Assembly: GCA_947630825.1 (NCBI GenBank)
Contig: CANRJA010000008.1
Span: forward strand, 1-64,000
Length of the DNA: 64,000 nt
Direction: 5' to 3'
Source: an uncultured Clostridia bacterium
GTDB taxonomy: Bacteria > Bacillota > Clostridia > Oscillospirales > Ruminococcaceae
In this document: positions 5,509 through 13,084 of the stretch, piece by piece
Numbering within the stretch: position 1 is the stretch's first letter
Layout: each line of letters starts with the position of its first letter
Program-made: the position numbers and the translations under genes
Notes under the pieces: model-generated
Database searches by the model: none
What the model was told of the DNA's origin: nothing
The model's input: the letters and a program-made list of their open reading frames with translations, nothing else

Positions 5509-6882
5509 TTAACCAAGTACATCAAAAATCTTTATTGCGATATTGCAGTATAGAAATACCGAGCAGGCGTCAACGATAGTCGATATAAGCGGAGCCGCCA
5601 TTATCGCAGGGTCAAAGTGAAGCTTCTTTGCAATCATAGGAAGCACGCAGCCTACAGTTTTGGCAAGTATGACAGTTGCGATTATAGAAAGTCCTATTAC
5701 AAAACCGAGTAATGCGGAATTTATATCTGCGTCATTTCGATATACAAACCAGATTCTCACGCCGTTTACAGCCGCCAAAACAAAGCTTACCAAAAGAGCA
5801 ATTCTAAACTCTTTGAACATAACCTTAAAGAAATCCTTGAATTCTATTTCGTCCATAGCAAGACTTCTGATAACTATGGTAGACGACTGCGAACCGCAGT
5901 TTCCGCCTGTACCCGTAAGCATAGGTACAAATGAAAAGAGTATTGGTATTGAAACTAAAAGACTTTCATAGTGGTTTATAACAGCACCCGATAGGGTAGC
6001 GGAAAGCATAAGAAACAGAAGCCATGGTATTCGGCTTTTTGCGTGTGAGAATACAGATGTGTTAAAGTAAGATTCGTCTGTAGGCGAAATACCTGCCATC
6101 TTCTGAATATCCTCGGTCGTTTCCTCGTGGATAACGTCAATGATGTCGTCGACAGTGATAATGCCGACGATTCGGTTTTCGTTATCTACAACGGGAATTG
6201 CCATAAGGTCGTATTTGCGGATAGTGTTTGCAACCTCTTCCTGGTCGTCGTGAGTGTTAACATAGATAACATTTGTATCCATTATATCTTCAATTTTTGC
6301 GTCCTCATCAGCAGTGATAAGGTCGAGAAGCTCGACTGTTCCAATGAGTTTTCTAAACTCGGTTACATAACAGGTGTATATTGTTTCCTTTACAAAGCCT
6401 ACCTGCCTTATCTTTTTCATTGCCTCGGCAACGGTCATATCCTTTGCAAAGAAAACATACTCGATAGTCATAAGACTTCCTGCGCTGTCATCAGGATAGT
6501 TTAAGACTTCGTTTATTCTTTTTCTGGTCTGGGAATCGGTGTTCTTTAAAATTCTCGATACCACATTTGCCGGCATTTCCTCGATAAGGTCAACTGTATC
6601 GTCTAAAAACAGCTCGTCTAGTACCTTACGAAGCTCGTTTTCAGAAAATGAGTTTATCAGCTTTTCCTGAATCTCACTAGGCAGATTTGAGAAAATTTCA
6701 GACGCATTATCCTTAGGAAGTATTCTAAAAACAAGAGTTAGATCCACATCGTTTATCTCTTCCATAAGAGATGCTACGTCATACGGATTCTGGTCTTTCA
6801 GAAAAGCCTTCAGCTTTGTATACTGCTTATTTTCAATAAGTTCAAGCGCAGTAGCTTCAAGTGTTTTTTCGTCCATCGGCAT
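5509..6882 (-). CDS. mgtE: Magnesium transporter MgtE
   Basis: N domain, CBS pair (DLMAIPVVDNENRIVGIITVDDIIDVI), C-terminal TM domain with GTGGNCGSQSS. Confidence 0.95.
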   Translation of the reverse strand: MPMDEKTLEATALELIENKQYTKLKAFLKDQNPYDVASLMEEINDVDLTLVFRILPKDNASEIFSNLPSEIQEKLINSFSENELRKVLDELFLDDTVDLIEEMPANVVSRILKNTDSQTRKRINEVLNYPDDSAGSLMTIEYVFFAKDMTVAEAMKKIRQVGFVKETIYTCYVTEFRKLIGTVELLDLITADEDAKIEDIMDTNVIYVNTHDDQEEVANTIRKYDLMAIPVVDNENRIVGIITVDDIIDVIHEETTEDIQKMAGISPTDESYFNTSVFSHAKSRIPWLLFLMLSATLSGAVINHYESLLVSIPILFSFVPMLTGTGGNCGSQSSTIVIRSLAMDEIEFKDFFKVMFKEFRIALLVSFVLAAVNGVRIWFVYRNDADINSALLGFVIGLSIIATVILAKTVGCVLPMIAKKLHFDPAIMAAPLISTIVDACSVFLYCNIAIKIFDVLG

Positions 6883-6923
6883 ATCCTCTTTTATTGATAT
6901 TTACTAGGATAGCCGGAGTTTGC

Positions 6924-7004
6924 TTATATGGTTATTACAGACAGCAAAAGTCTGCAAAAAATTATAAGCGTCGCTCGCGGCTTTGAGTTACTTCCGCTGT
7001 CCAT
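6924..7004 (-). CDS. Candidate 26-aa leader peptide (MDSGSNSKPRATLIIFCRLLLSVITI) between M-box riboswitch and mgtE
   Basis: ATG preceded by AAAGGAGATGAGATC (strong SD); ends TAA at 6924; not in the ORF track because it is short. Confidence 0.55.
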   Translation of the reverse strand: MDSGSNSKPRATLIIFCRLLLSVITI

Positions 7005-7044
7005 GATCTCATCTCCTTTGAATTTTATTAGTAAAAATAAGCAT

Positions 7045-7096
7045 AAAAATAATCTTCATAACAGGCAAGACAACAGGCTTGAACCATTAGAAGATT
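7045..7096 (-). terminator. Riboswitch expression-platform terminator
   Basis: Minus strand AATCTTC...GAAGATT long stem (extra inner pairs TAATGG / CCTGTTA) followed by ATTTTTAT; loop side contains GTTCAAGC complementary to M-box 3' segment GCTTGAAC. Confidence 0.65.
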
Positions 7097-7144
7097 AAAA
7101 CACATATAAACTATGATTGATAATTAAATTTTAAGTACCAAACA

Positions 7145-7300
7145 CAGACGTTCAAGCTTCAGCTTCGCAGGGCATAGGATTTTTGCATTGGAACTGCGTT
7201 AGGTTATGCCTTGAATCGACATCTCCTGTTGACCAGCTGACAGTGTCTCCACCATTTCGCGGCAGCGTCCCGTATCCCTGTGGTAGCCTCACCTACCGAA
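7145..7300 (-). promoter_or_regulatory. M-box (ykoK leader) Mg2+ riboswitch
   Basis: Minus strand TTTCGGTAGGTGAGGCTACCACAGGGATACGGGACGCTGCCGCGAAATGGTGGAGACACTGTCAGCTGGTCAACAGGAGATGTCGATTCAAGGCATAACC...CCTATGCCCTGCGAAGCTGAAGCTTGAAC matches the M-box core (GGTGAGGCT, ACGCTGCCG, GGTCAACAG) and lies upstream of mgtE. Confidence 0.92.
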
Positions 7301-7528
7301 ATTATTTACTTTACAATAATTATTATATTCAGATTTTATGTTCTTGTCAATACATTTTTATGAACTAATGCTTTAAAGTCTGGTTTTTATATGGTATTAA
7401 TTCTTCTTAAAATCAAATAATAATCAGTAATGCTTCAACAATTTTGTGATTTAAGTAAGTTTTATAGCTCCTTGCCATATTCTGAGTTACTATATAAAGC
7501 TGGCGGTTAAGGTATAAAGTCCGATTTG

Positions 7529-7557
7529 TTGACTTTTAAAGTGTATTGTTGTATAAT
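7529..7557 (+). promoter_or_regulatory. Sigma-A-like promoter for polymer locus
   Basis: TTGACT-N17-TATAAT upstream of ORF 7604. Confidence 0.7.
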
Positions 7558-7603: not shown

Positions 7604-8773
7604 ATGAGAAAAGCAGGTGATGGTATCAAATTTCTTTTAAAGCAGTGCCTAAAAATGACTGTACAGAATATAATACTGCCGCTTGTTTATTTTATTTTCA
7701 AATCAAGAAAAATTAAAAGAGGATTGGTTATTTTCGCAGATGCTCATAATGATGAGTGCCCTGTGAGTATGAGGTGTATTTCGGATAGATTTAAAAGTGA
7801 CTATGATTATTCGGTTATTGAGTTTTATCACGATTTCAGCCGATGCGGAAGCTTTAGAAGTCTTATATACTCAATACAGTTTATGCGGCTTTATGCAAAA
7901 GCGGAGCTTGTTTTTATATGTGATAATTTTCTTCCGGTATCCGCCTGTAAAAAGCGAAAGGGAACATTAGTAGTTCAGCTTTGGCATGCCTGCGGAGCGT
8001 TTAAGAAATTCGGATATGATACGTCAGGAGATATTCCTAAGTATTACAAAGGCAATGTTTATAAGAATTACGATTTGGTGACTGTTTCGTCAGGCGAATG
8101 TATTAAACACTTTGCAAGTGCAATGAGGCTTGACGAGAGCGTTTTTAAAGCGTTGGGAGTAAGCCGTACTGATATTTACTTTGATGAAGACTTTATAGAA
8201 AAGTCAAAAGAAAGATTTTATAGTGAAAATCCTAATGCAAAGGGTAAAAAGGTTGCTTTGTGGGCGCCTACCTTTAGAGGAAATCCGTCCGAGCCGTATT
8301 TAGAGGGCAATGTTGCTGTTGAAAGGCTAGCGGACGAGCTTTCAAAAAGCGGTGAGTGGTACTTTGTAATAAAACCGCATCCGCATATAAAAAAGCCGGT
8401 TGCTGCGAATACTGAGTCGGATATCCCGACTGAAATGCTTTTTGCTGTTGCCGATTTGCTTATAACTGATTATTCGTCAGTGATATATGAATACTCATTG
8501 TTCAAAAAACCGATATTAATATTTGCACCAGATCTGGAAAAATATAAAGCGCAAAGAGGTTTTTATATTGATATTCAAAACTTGCCTGCTGATATTATTA
8601 CCGATTCTGAGTGCCTGACAAAGGAGAATATTGAAAAAGCCGTCTCGCAGTTTGATGAAAGTAAAATGCAAAGCTTTATTGAAAGATATATGAACGCTTG
8701 CGATGGAAATTCAACCAAAAGGATAATAGAATACGTTAAAGAAATAAAGATGAAAGTTAAGGAGGACATATAA
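7604..8773 (+). CDS. CDP-glycerol:glycerophosphotransferase family protein (TagB/TagF/TarL-like)
   Basis: LWHACGAFKKFG, VIKPHPH, ITDYSSVIYEYSLFKKPI motifs. Confidence 0.9.
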   Translation: MRKAGDGIKFLLKQCLKMTVQNIILPLVYFIFKSRKIKRGLVIFADAHNDECPVSMRCISDRFKSDYDYSVIEFYHDFSRCGSFRSLIYSIQFMRLYAKAELVFICDNFLPVSACKKRKGTLVVQLWHACGAFKKFGYDTSGDIPKYYKGNVYKNYDLVTVSSGECIKHFASAMRLDESVFKALGVSRTDIYFDEDFIEKSKERFYSENPNAKGKKVALWAPTFRGNPSEPYLEGNVAVERLADELSKSGEWYFVIKPHPHIKKPVAANTESDIPTEMLFAVADLLITDYSSVIYEYSLFKKPILIFAPDLEKYKAQRGFYIDIQNLPADIITDSECLTKENIEKAVSQFDESKMQSFIERYMNACDGNSTKRIIEYVKEIKMKVKEDI

Positions 8774-9486
8774 TGAAAAATGTATACGGAGTAGTTCTTG
8801 CCGGCGGAAAGGGCACAAGAATGGGCAATGTCGAAAAGCCCAAGCAGTTTATGGAAGTCGGCGGCAAGCCTATTATTATTCATACTATAGAAAAGTTTGT
8901 TGTCTGTCAGGAGTTTGACAAGGTTTTAGTTTTGTCTCCAAAGCAGTGGATAAACCACACGCAGGATTTAATTAGAAAGTTTATTCCTAACTGCGACAAT
9001 GTAGTTGTATTAGAGGGCGGAGCAACGAGAAACGAAACTATTATGAATTCAATTAAATATATCGACGAGCAGGGCTGTCTTGACGATGAGACTATTATTG
9101 TTACGCACGACTCGGTAAGACCTTTTGTCACTCACAGAATTTTGGAGGAGAATGTAAAGTTTGCTAAAGAGTACGGTGCCTGCGATACTGTAATTCCTGC
9201 GACCGATACTATAGTAGAGAGCAAAGATAATCAGTTTATAACAAATATTCCCGACCGCTCAAAAATGTATCAGGGTCAGACGCCTCAGACATTCAGAGCA
9301 AAGATGCTGAGAGAGCTTTATAACTCTTTAACGGATGAAGAAAAAACTGTGCTGACAGACGCTTGTAAGATACTTGTTTTAAAGGGAGAGAAAATTCACC
9401 TTGTTGACGGAGAGGTATTCAATATAAAGATAACATACCCGTACGATCTTAGGGTTGCCGAATCTCTGTTAGGAGGCGAAAAGTAA
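8773..9486 (+). CDS. tarI: 2-C-methyl-D-erythritol 4-phosphate / D-ribitol-5-phosphate cytidylyltransferase (IspD/TarI family); TarI favoured by context
   Basis: VVLAGGKGTRMGNVEKPKQFMEVGGKPIIIHT; adjacent to TarJ-like dehydrogenase. Confidence 0.85.
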   Translation: MKNVYGVVLAGGKGTRMGNVEKPKQFMEVGGKPIIIHTIEKFVVCQEFDKVLVLSPKQWINHTQDLIRKFIPNCDNVVVLEGGATRNETIMNSIKYIDEQGCLDDETIIVTHDSVRPFVTHRILEENVKFAKEYGACDTVIPATDTIVESKDNQFITNIPDRSKMYQGQTPQTFRAKMLRELYNSLTDEEKTVLTDACKILVLKGEKIHLVDGEVFNIKITYPYDLRVAESLLGGEK

Positions 9487-9487
9487 T

Positions 9488-10513
9488 ATGCTTAATACAG
9501 TTTATCAGCTAAAGAAACCGCGACAGCTAGATATATTATTTAAGGATATTACACTCGACGACAAGCACGTTATAGTAAGACCAACTCACTTGTCGATATG
9601 TAATGCTGACCAGAGATACTATCAGGGAACACGAAGCGAGGAGGTTTTGGCAAAGAAGCTTCCTATGGCGCTTATTCACGAGGGAATAGGAAAGGTAGTA
9701 TACGACCCGACAGGAACATTCCAAACAGGTGACGAGGTAGTTATGATACCTAATGTTCCAGAACAGGTTGACGAAATAATTGCAGAAAACTATCTGCGTA
9801 CTAGCAAATTCAGAGGCAGCGGATTTGACGGCTTTTTGCAGGAGTATGTTGAAACAACGACGGACAGGCTTGTTCTTTTGCCGAAAGGTATAAATAAGAA
9901 GGTTGCGGCTTTTACTGAGATCGTAAGCGTAAGCTATCACGCAATAGACAGATTTTACAGGTTTTCACACAAGAGAAGAAATAATATCGGTGTGTGGGGA
10001 GACGGAAATCTGGGGTATATAACATCTCTGCTTTTAAAAAGTCTGCACCCTGAAACAAATCTGTATGTTTTCGGAATAGACGAGTCTAAAATGAACGATT
10101 TTACCTTTGCAGACGGGGCATATCATATAAGCAGGATTCCCGATGGTTTGATGCTCGACCACGCATTTGAATGTGTAGGCGGAAGTGCCGCGCACAGGGC
10201 GATAAATCAGATAATAGATTATATAAATCCAGAGGGAACTATTTCTATTCTCGGCGTTTCGGAGGACTTAGTTCCGATAAATACAAGAATGGTTCTTGAA
10301 AAGGGTCTGACCATTTTCGGAAGCTCACGAAGCGGAAGAAAAGACTTTGTCGGACTAATTGAGCTTTATAAGGAAAAGCCGGAGGTAGTTGCATATCTTG
10401 AGAACATTGTCGGAACTGTTGTTAATGTTCGTGACGTTAAAGATATAGCTTATGCGTTTGAAACGGATATTCACAAGCTTATAGGAAAAACAGTAATGGT
10501 ATGGGACGAATAG
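9488..10513 (+). CDS. tarJ: Ribulose-5-phosphate reductase/ribitol-5-phosphate dehydrogenase TarJ (MDR family)
   Basis: MDR-type dehydrogenase (VRPTHLSICNADQRYYQG, LIHEGIGKVV) directly after TarI-like gene. Confidence 0.85.
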   Translation: MLNTVYQLKKPRQLDILFKDITLDDKHVIVRPTHLSICNADQRYYQGTRSEEVLAKKLPMALIHEGIGKVVYDPTGTFQTGDEVVMIPNVPEQVDEIIAENYLRTSKFRGSGFDGFLQEYVETTTDRLVLLPKGINKKVAAFTEIVSVSYHAIDRFYRFSHKRRNNIGVWGDGNLGYITSLLLKSLHPETNLYVFGIDESKMNDFTFADGAYHISRIPDGLMLDHAFECVGGSAAHRAINQIIDYINPEGTISILGVSEDLVPINTRMVLEKGLTIFGSSRSGRKDFVGLIELYKEKPEVVAYLENIVGTVVNVRDVKDIAYAFETDIHKLIGKTVMVWDE

Positions 10514-10552
10514 ATAAGCATTGAAATATATTTTCAGAACAGGACAGTATAT

Positions 10553-11746
10553 ATGAATTTCAAAAGTATAATAAAAAAGTATTATAATAAAGTGGCGTCA
10601 AGAACATATAAATTCGCAACGCTAAAGGTTATTTATCCGCTTGTTTATAATTTTTATAAAAGAAAACCGATTGACGAAAAAAAAGTTTTGCTTATAGAGG
10701 TTCGTTCTCTTAGTCTTACCGACAGCTATGCTGTTCTTGACAGAGAGCTTAAAGCAAGGGGAGATTTAAACATTTCTTATCAGTTTCTAGGAGAAACGAT
10801 ATTGAATATTATAGGCTGTTTTAAAAGAGGTCTTGCCTGTGTAAAGGAGCTTGCAACGGCAAGAGCTACGTTTATAACAGACGCTTGTCAAATAACAAGC
10901 TGTGTGAATTTAAGAAAAGAAACAAGGCTTATTCAAATATGGCATGCCTGCGGAGCATTTAAGAAGTTTGGGTTTTCAACTGCACTTTTGAAGTTCGGAG
11001 ATTCTGAAAAGAGAATGCTTAAATATCCATACTATAAGAATATTTCATATATAACAGTTTCAAGTCCCGAGGTCGTGTGGGCATATGAGGAGGCAATGAA
11101 CAGCAGTACCTTTGAAAGCAAAGTAGTACCTGTAGGAGTTTCGAGAACGGATTTGTTTTTTGAAGATGATTTTGTAAACAATGCCAAAGAGCGTGTTTAT
11201 AAAGCCTTTCCAAAGGCTCGTGATAAAAAGGTTATACTTTATGCTCCGACGTTCAGAGGAAGAGTAAGAAACGCAAGAACCGGAATGGTAGATATAGAGC
11301 GTTTTCATCAGGATTTGGGAGACGAGTATGTGCTGATAATAAAGCATCATCCGTATGTTAAAAATCCTCCGCTGATTGATGAAAGGTTCGATGATTTTGC
11401 GGCTGATTTATCCAAAACCTGCGATATAGAGGATCTTCTTTGTGCAGCGGATATATGCATATCAGATTATTCGTCTCTTGTGTTTGAGTATTCATTGTTT
11501 GAGCGTCCGCTGATATTCTTCGCTTATGATATTGAATCTTATAACGACTGGCGAGGCTTTTACTATGATTATGCCGAGCTTACTCCCGGACCGGTATTTA
11601 CTACTGATGAAGAGATTATAGAGTTTATAAAAAATATTGATGAGCGATTTGACAAGCAAAGAGTTATTGATTTTAAAGAAAAATTTATGAGTGCCTGCGA
11701 CGGAAACTCTACAAGACGTATAATTGAATTGGCATTTAAAAAGTAA
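10553..11746 (+). CDS. CDP-glycerol:glycerophosphotransferase family protein
   Basis: IQIWHACGAFKKFG, IIKHHPYVK, ISDYSSLVFEYSLFERPLIFF. Confidence 0.9.
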   Translation: MNFKSIIKKYYNKVASRTYKFATLKVIYPLVYNFYKRKPIDEKKVLLIEVRSLSLTDSYAVLDRELKARGDLNISYQFLGETILNIIGCFKRGLACVKELATARATFITDACQITSCVNLRKETRLIQIWHACGAFKKFGFSTALLKFGDSEKRMLKYPYYKNISYITVSSPEVVWAYEEAMNSSTFESKVVPVGVSRTDLFFEDDFVNNAKERVYKAFPKARDKKVILYAPTFRGRVRNARTGMVDIERFHQDLGDEYVLIIKHHPYVKNPPLIDERFDDFAADLSKTCDIEDLLCAADICISDYSSLVFEYSLFERPLIFFAYDIESYNDWRGFYYDYAELTPGPVFTTDEEIIEFIKNIDERFDKQRVIDFKEKFMSACDGNSTRRIIELAFKK

Positions 11747-11770
11747 GCATTTTTTAAGGGGATATATAAA

Positions 11771-13084
11771 ATGAGTTTTGTAAAAAGCATAATAAGGGTT
11801 ACAAGGCTTAACCGCATTTGGTGGAAGGTAAAAAAGCTACCGTTAATAAAACAGGTTAATGCTTATTATAATAAAAAGAAAAAAGAGAAAAATAAAGAGC
11901 GCAACCTTATTCATATGGAGGAGTTTTTGCATCACACTATTCCAGAGGCTTACGAAAGCTGCCTAGATAAGCCTGTTGATGATAGAAAGGTCGTATTTAT
12001 CGAGCCTAGATACAATACTCTTTCAAATAACTTTGCAGAGGTTTACAGAATACTTGAAAATTATTACGATTTTGACTTAAAAATATGCCTTCTTCGTGAA
12101 ATAAACCTTTCTAAAGAAGAGTTTGAGCAAAACTGCATAGATATGGTAAAGGAAGTCGCAACGGCAAAATACGTATTTTTAGACGAGGCGTCAAGGCCGT
12201 TCAGCGCGTTTAAAAAGAGAAAGGAAACTGTTGCAATTCAGCTCTGGCACGGCTGCGGAGCGTTCAAGAAATTTGGAATGTCGACAGCCGATTTGATTTT
12301 TGGTTCAAATCGTGAATCTATGGAAAAGTTTCCGTTTTACGCCAACTTAGATTATGTAACGGTCAGTTCACCAGAGGTTATATGGGCTTATGAAGAGGCT
12401 ATGGTGCTTAAAGACAAAGACACCGAAATCGTTGCAACCGGTGTTTCTAGAACCGATACCTTTTTTAGAGATGACACTAAAAAGAAAGCATACGAGAAGC
12501 TGTATAGCCTTATGCCGCCCGCAAGGGGCAAAAAGGTAATTTTATACGCTCCTACCTTTAGGGGAAGAGTAAAGAAGGCAAAAACGCCCGAACAGATAGA
12601 TTTGGGTGCCTTCTATGCCGAGCTTTCAAATGACTATGTTTTTCTTTTTAAACACCATCCTATCGTAAAGAAGCTTCCTGAGGTGCCGGAGGCGTACAAG
12701 TATTTTGCTTACGATATGACTCAGGATATGACTATTGATGAGCTTTTATGCGTAGCTGATATATGTATATCCGATTATTCTTCGCTTGTATTTGAATACT
12801 CACTGTTTGAAAGACCTCTGATATTTTTCGCGTTTGATATAGAGGAATATCTTGATTGGAGGGGTTTTTACTACAATTATGACGAACTCACTCCCGGCCC
12901 TGTTTATAAAACAAATGAAGATATAATAAACTATATTAAGAATATAGATTCAATGTTTGACAAACAGAAGATAATAGATTTCAAAAACAAGTTTATGTGT
13001 TCCTGCGACGGACACGCTACAGAACGCATTTTGAAGCTAGCCTTCGGCGACGCTTTGGAGGCTAACAAACGTACTCGGACTTAA
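11771..13084 (+). CDS. CDP-glycerol:glycerophosphotransferase family protein (paralogue of preceding gene)
   Basis: IQLWHGCGAFKKFG, LFKHHPIVK, ISDYSSLVFEYSLFERPLIFF. Confidence 0.9.
   Translation: MSFVKSIIRVTRLNRIWWKVKKLPLIKQVNAYYNKKKKEKNKERNLIHMEEFLHHTIPEAYESCLDKPVDDRKVVFIEPRYNTLSNNFAEVYRILENYYDFDLKICLLREINLSKEEFEQNCIDMVKEVATAKYVFLDEASRPFSAFKKRKETVAIQLWHGCGAFKKFGMSTADLIFGSNRESMEKFPFYANLDYVTVSSPEVIWAYEEAMVLKDKDTEIVATGVSRTDTFFRDDTKKKAYEKLYSLMPPARGKKVILYAPTFRGRVKKAKTPEQIDLGAFYAELSNDYVFLFKHHPIVKKLPEVPEAYKYFAYDMTQDMTIDELLCVADICISDYSSLVFEYSLFERPLIFFAFDIEEYLDWRGFYYNYDELTPGPVYKTNEDIINYIKNIDSMFDKQKIIDFKNKFMCSCDGHATERILKLAFGDALEANKRTRT

Follow-up and report, generated by a model that had tools for sequence, protein, structure and literature searches.

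A conserved leader ORF before mgtE and mgtA in Bacillota as a candidate translational attenuator of magnesium transporter genes

The mgtE locus and conservation of its leader ORF

The window, a 64,000 nt stretch of contig CANRJA010000008.1 from an uncultured Clostridia bacterium of the Ruminococcaceae, carries on its reverse strand the following features, given in order of transcription.

7322..7350, reverse strand: promoter TTGACA-17-TATAAT with consensus boxes, the -35 and -10 being kept in nine genus mates
7136..7307, reverse strand: M-box Mg2+ riboswitch aptamer (RF00380), covariance model score 93.4 bits against a gathering cut-off of 44
7050..7097, reverse strand: putative M-box terminator hairpin followed by a U-rich tail, -13.9 kcal/mol, z = -4.1
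7013..7019, reverse strand: leader Shine-Dalgarno (SD) AAAGGAG, with AAAGGAGATGA kept with few changes
6924..7004, reverse strand: leader ORF of 26 codons, MDSGSNSKPRATLIIFCRLLLSVITI, with the conserved portion MD..S..KPR(A/G)
5509..6882, reverse strand: mgtE, Mg2+ transporter with the standard domain set (MgtE_N, CBS, MgtE), likelier start at 6876

The first-pass annotation had described a 26-codon ATG ORF with an SD between the M-box and mgtE, and this is indeed present, with AAAGGAGATGAGATC standing 5' of it. It had also placed the ORF past the riboswitch terminator, which agrees with the order found here: the hairpin, whose arms are largely kept across the genus, lies with its U-rich tail between the aptamer and the ORF and is consistent with an M-box terminator. 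The leader SD is better than that of mgtE in the window, as had been claimed, but this is a local detail rather than a general trait, since mgtE in relatives is preceded by AAGGAGG. The gap to mgtE, given previously as about 41 nt, is revised to about 47 nt, as mgtE more likely starts at 6876 (MDEKT...) than at 6882 (MPMDEKT), to which the SD is too near; relatives show AAGGAGGATATGCCGATGGA. Divergent from mgtE, a run of genes at 7604-13084 includes three CDP-glycerol glycerophosphotransferase-like genes together with IspD-like and alcohol-dehydrogenase-like genes, resembling a TarI/TarJ-like teichoic acid set, and is preceded by a TTGACT-17-TATAAT box at 7529-7557.

Loss of the reading frame in relatives had been named as grounds for abandoning the ORF; instead, the leader start, SD and N-terminal frame are kept in nine genomes of the same genus (consensus MDSGSNNKNSKPRG). 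The first ~17 codons are conserved, the indels among them (6 and 9 nt) are all multiples of three, and Asp2 is present in every leader of the genus. The peptide sequence of the C-terminal half drifts, and a one-base indel after the PR(A/G) codons causes the window subgroup to read another frame than its sisters, with the stop staying near. Within the genus, codons 2-17 have a pN/pS of 0.63 and the remaining codons one of 0.97; over the whole ORF the value is 0.84 (bootstrap 0.57-1.33), so the dN/dS comparison that had been recommended cannot by itself prove coding; synonymous sites of the N-terminal codons are likewise constrained. On these sequence comparisons the 26-codon ORF is genuine, and selection maintains it as a leader ORF.

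Four more divergent genus mates lack the M-box and retain the leader (MDGYVESNNIEPRG). MD and PRG persist in the genus mates without an M-box, and the proline codon varies synonymously. The leader of locus L014, which has no M-box, reads MDGYVESNNIEPRGSLFFDITVRDVLTKQ, that of L015 is a close variant, and inspection of the L012 sequence by eye gives a version that starts with GTG, DGYVENNSIEPRGSIGETFLSEVS.

A leader family largely independent of the M-box

An M-box is present at 11 of 18 scanned loci from the leader pattern (none at the other seven), and at only one of 20 scanned leader loci found without it (none at 19). Since most leader loci have no M-box, we regard the leader as an independent control layer, to which, on the evidence of these loci, the genus of the window adds an M-box. 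The idea that the leader is a piece of the M-box expression platform was ruled out by the existence of leaders at loci with no M-box. A simple regular expression for the M-box missed five of nine Rfam-positive loci checked, and its counts were set aside.

In the taxonomic family of the host, 29 of 299 sampled genomes carry an M-box, and at many of these loci SD-preceded ORFs beginning MD[AST]GS.. lie before mgtE or a P-type ATPase gene; MADDVGR.. ORFs are also seen, before a CorA-like gene. Across 345 genomes of the order, an SD followed by MDxG[S/N] was matched 30 times and the reversed pattern once. We then searched a collection of 84,980 species genomes, blind to gene content, for GAGGTGA-N5/6-ATG-GAY-GCN-GGN-AGY, which fixes the first five codons only and thus itself requires Asp2. 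This returned 117 matches against a chance expectation, by our own estimate from base counts, of ~4; 111 lie directly upstream of mgtE (89) or mgtA (22), and the remainder are at contig ends (two) or elsewhere (four). The records include Oscillibacter, Ruminococcus, Clostridium sp., a C. difficile strain and Trichococcus. Downstream of the fixed codons, frame 0 ends after 22-40 codons in 96% of the mgtE and mgtA loci (median 30), compared with 15% and 2% for the other frames. Among 58 mgtE genes picked without reference to the leader pattern, 25 have an MD/ME ORF with an SD within 300 nt upstream, where dinucleotide shuffles predict 0.3 and the opposite strand yields none.

The consensus of the wide family is MDAGSSSGTxPxGRSR, with residue preference reaching to about codon 15 (P11, G12, R13-14, S15). 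Its sequences point to a family that is widespread before mgtE and mgtA in Bacillota, including many Clostridia, and is apparently undescribed: we found no description of it in open-licence full texts (small-protein catalogues may hold the sequence), and at the scanned loci no Rfam family covers the leader. The first-pass annotation had envisaged neither a leader so largely independent of the M-box nor its presence before mgtA and its recurrence across Bacillota.

Several loci depart from this arrangement. At six mgtA loci (L026, at 1677-2083, and L022, L025, L035, L039 and L041) the M-box is followed by two leader ORFs, one of the form M[DE]P/Q..SRRY..KRW.. and then one beginning MDTGSSG.... 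In L026 an intrinsic terminator, GCCATCG..CGGTGGC-T6, comes after the first leader, and its 5' arm complements leader codons (CAAAACGATGG), which suggests transcription attenuation plus translational attenuation in one mRNA. CorA-like genes at L018 and L019 have a distinct short leader, MADDVGRSRK.. or MADDVGRKR.., about 80-110 nt past the M-box, and an mgtE locus (L229) has MDDVGRSY..; these may represent a second leader subtype. In Clostridioides difficile CD160 (L144) the leader MDAGSSNNISSVERSS.. lies behind an M-box and before an mgtA-like gene, and a nearly identical leader precedes an mgtA-like gene at L169. At L028 a leader, MDADSTVRLC.., just past the M-box runs across the mgtE start in a different frame; translating it must therefore hinder or feed mgtE directly.

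Predicted pairings of the leader RNA

Folding models indicate that the leader RNA can form three mutually exclusive helices, one of which hides the transporter SD. We refer to these as H1 (leader start with leader end), H2 (anti-SD with SD) and P-alt (middle leader codons with anti-SD). In the window their predicted arms are as follows.

6990..7004, reverse strand: H1 5' arm (leader start and codons 2-5), predicted best fold in most genus mates, an alternative in the window
6937..6951, reverse strand: H1 3' arm ACTTTTGCTGTCTGT, at the end of the leader ORF, predicted
6974..6982, reverse strand: P-alt 5' arm AGCCGCGAG, K-P-R codons, predicted best fold before the mgtE SD is made
6963..6969, reverse strand: P-alt inner 5' arm GCTTATA, predicted
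6922..6928, reverse strand: P-alt inner 3' arm TATAAGC, overlapping the leader stop codon, predicted
6911..6918, reverse strand: P-alt 3' arm CTCCGGCT, overlapping the anti-SD, predicted
6907..6915, reverse strand: anti-SD segment CGGCTATCC, the H2 5' arm, predicted
6877..6886, reverse strand: H2 3' arm GGATATGCCG, covering part of the mgtE SD and start region, predicted

In the genus of the window, CGGCUAUCC is predicted to pair with GGAUAUGCCG at the mgtE SD and start (H2), and the KPR codons with CUCCGGCU, which overlaps the anti-SD (P-alt). Before the SD is transcribed, the window RNA and that of several mates are predicted to fold best into a helix of the P-alt type, which is replaced by H2 in the predicted fold of the full-length RNA. 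The start-codon arm of H1 is constant in the genus while the other arm varies by G-U changes; H1 is not the predicted best fold in the window itself. Among the 10 close genus sequences two-sided compensatory changes are absent, and covariation is uninformative there. Diverged genus mates rebuild H2 from other sequences, with the partners changing together (in L015, GGCGUCCU/AGGAUGCGCC).

The same pairings are detectable in the wide set. Across 109 loci, the computed pairing probability of the transporter SD is 0.89 with the native post-leader interval and 0.72 with a shuffled one (Wilcoxon 5e-15). For 95 mutually dissimilar loci we compared each locus's own segments with segments swapped between loci (5000 permutations), which reduces the effect of shared ancestry without removing it fully, and found excess complementarity between SD and interval (17.04 own, 15.12 permuted), between leader nt 19-33 and interval (16.53, 13.62) and between leader SD/start and leader 3' half (18.16, 14.93), each with p < 0.0002. 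Two control segments show no excess in this test over the same loci (p = 0.62 and 0.57).

Another candidate, pairing of codons 4-5 (GGAAGU) with ACUUCC as the sole alternative helix, was rejected. ACTTCC does occur in 40 intervals against 2.45 expected, and CTTCC is found in the interval of 38 of the 56 leaders with GGAAG compared to six of the 29 with GGCAG (p = 7e-5), CTGTC showing the opposite distribution; yet leader nt 4-18 reach only p = 0.05 against permuted intervals, and codons 7-11 are the stronger partner. An intrinsic terminator after the leader was likewise set aside as a general mechanism, a strict scan having found five in 122 loci. Terminator-like hairpins with U-tracts do lie within or just past the leader at L082, L099, L091, L051 and L061, and some members of the family may act on transcription.

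Proposed mechanism and known systems

In ermC/ermB-type translational attenuators, translation of a leader moves the RNA between two rival stems, one of which hides the SD. The Bacillota leader is alike in pairing logic, whereas inducer and target are unrelated and there is no macrolide link. Leader peptides responsive to Mg2+ are, to our knowledge, known from enteric bacteria and, by position, from mycobacteria. The M-box itself (ykoK leader) is bona fide in the window, yet is a separate upstream element from the leader.

The closest relatives in working are MgtQ and MgtL, with MgtQ being the closest tested analogue. In the mgtCBRU operon of Salmonella, Asp2 and Glu5 of MgtQ destabilise the ribosome and a 2:3 stem frees the mgtB ribosome binding site (RBS), as shown experimentally (PMC8092293). 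The Bacillota leader shares with it a short ORF before a Mg2+ transporter gene, an RBS hidden in a 3:4 stem, the alternative 2:3 stem, Asp2 and control of translation (PMC8092293). However, MgtQ is an enterobacterial peptide of 8 aa inside an operon (PMC8092293), whereas the Bacillota leaders are mostly 22-45 aa, lie in the 5' leader of mgtE or mgtA and have only Asp2 fixed, together with GSS..PxGR; codon 5 is mostly Ser, not Glu, and positions 3-16 hold on average 0.68 acidic residues. MgtL, before mgtA of E. coli and Salmonella, is similar in its position before a Mg2+ transporter gene, its acidic codon 2 and a decision made at early codons, but low Mg2+ makes ribosomes drop off at its destabilising EPDP motif, and MgtL controls Rho-dependent termination (PMC11282234). 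The Bacillota consensus (MDAGSS or MDSGSN) has no EPDP at codons 2-5, and intrinsic terminators behind the leader are rare. Lacking a second acidic codon or EPDP, the family was not filed under either system. A conserved uORF behind an M-box has been described before, in Mycobacterium tuberculosis, where uORF2 (Rv1805A), reported as mycobacteria-specific, likewise has a conserved N-terminus and a conserved Pro (PMC12810186). There, the downstream gene is pe20 and the M-box acts on the SD of the uORF itself (PMC12810186), while the Bacillota leader lies before transporter genes and in most species has no other element beside it.

We think it fairly probable that the leader peptide of the Bacillota mgtE/mgtA family acts in cis by translational attenuation, with early pausing or drop-off of the ribosome freeing the transporter SD. 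The second, translation-linked control layer that the first-pass annotation had proposed is well supported by the conserved start and frame together with the computed SD-hiding helix and its competitors, and the features of a translational attenuator can be recognised: a short ORF with its own SD and, by computation, sequestration of the transporter SD and an exclusive leader:anti-SD helix. The family and its reading frame are computational results, as are the sequestered SD and the rival helices; Mg2+ as the signal and the direction of control we infer. In the off state, H1 (1:1') and H2 (3:4) would both be formed. At low Mg2+ the ribosome would pause on or leave the leader at its first codons, keeping H1 open so that P-alt (2:3) may form and the transporter SD is free, while a ribosome reading on through the PxGR codons would break P-alt and allow H2 to shut the transporter. 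In the window this layer would act only on transcripts let past the terminator by the M-box. We favour early pausing or drop-off as the on signal since the controlled genes encode Mg2+ transporters and Asp2 has been kept. Against this, Asp2 is the sole conserved acidic residue, where MgtL has E-P-D-P and MgtQ has D2/E5, so that Mg2+-dependent drop-off is proposed by analogy. A crude footprint model gives opposite signs here, an early ribosome lowering SD pairing slightly in the genus (0.75 to 0.68) and raising it in the wide set (0.80 to 0.90). The reading of the leader probably decides whether the transporter SD is open or shut.

Other explanations were considered. Nascent-chain arrest, in which MDAGSS..PxGR stalls the ribosome at about codons 11-16 and so holds the RNA in an SD-open state in response to Mg2+, polyamines or an antibiotic, would account for the residue preference up to about codon 15, the synonymous variation of the P codon of PRG within the genus and the position of the P-alt partner in these codons. 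It appears unlikely, however, as a ribosome modelled at codons 8-16 either closes the SD or fails to open it, in the genus and wide-set models alike, and the C-terminal part and stop lack sequence conservation; we also know of no arrest motif that matches the peptide. Plain translational coupling, whereby the leader merely holds ribosomes close to the mgtE start and H2 melts as the leader is translated or terminated, with no sensing, seems less plausible again. It would suit the window, where the leader stop lies 8 nt before the anti-SD, and a leader length tightly held at 28-32 codons, but in the majority of loci the anti-SD comes tens of nt after the stop, a ribosome at the stop codon does not on average open the SD in the wide-set model, and the conserved MDAGSS residues and P-alt pairing would be left unexplained.

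It is also conceivable that the conserved element is RNA only and the ORF incidental, given that N-terminal synonymous sites are constrained too and that Ser codons 5-6 are almost always AGY in the wide set. We consider this very unlikely in view of the length distribution largely particular to frame 0, the strong SD at a fixed distance and indels that keep the frame. The converse suggestion, also raised in the first-pass annotation, was a small MgtE-associated protein acting in trans like MgtS or MgtR, for which the hydrophobic tail ATLIIFCRLLLSVITI of the window version might speak. This finds no support and is the least credible explanation, since the C-terminal half drifts at a pN/pS of 0.97 and is read in another frame in sister species, tails elsewhere are often polar, basic or Arg-rich, and the same leader also precedes the unrelated MgtA; a small membrane protein of this kind was rejected because the peptide is not conserved along its full length. 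The regulatory reading of the leader gains in both strength and breadth, and that of a small protein is rejected.

We further suggest, more tentatively and at somewhat less than even chance, that MDAGSS..PxGR represents a new class of nascent-peptide sensor, common among Clostridia and able to be stacked with the M-box, in which the stability or pausing of the ribosome at the earliest codons reports the Mg2+ level of the cell. If so, one mRNA would gauge free Mg2+ through its RNA and, through translation, the Mg2+ effective at the ribosome. A family of mgtE/mgtA leaders throughout Clostridia, a C. difficile strain among them, would turn Mg2+ sensing by translation into a general strategy of bacteria and would offer a short and simple peptide for studying how the ribosome senses Mg2+. 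Loci that combine an M-box with two leaders would rank among the most layered metal controls known to us.
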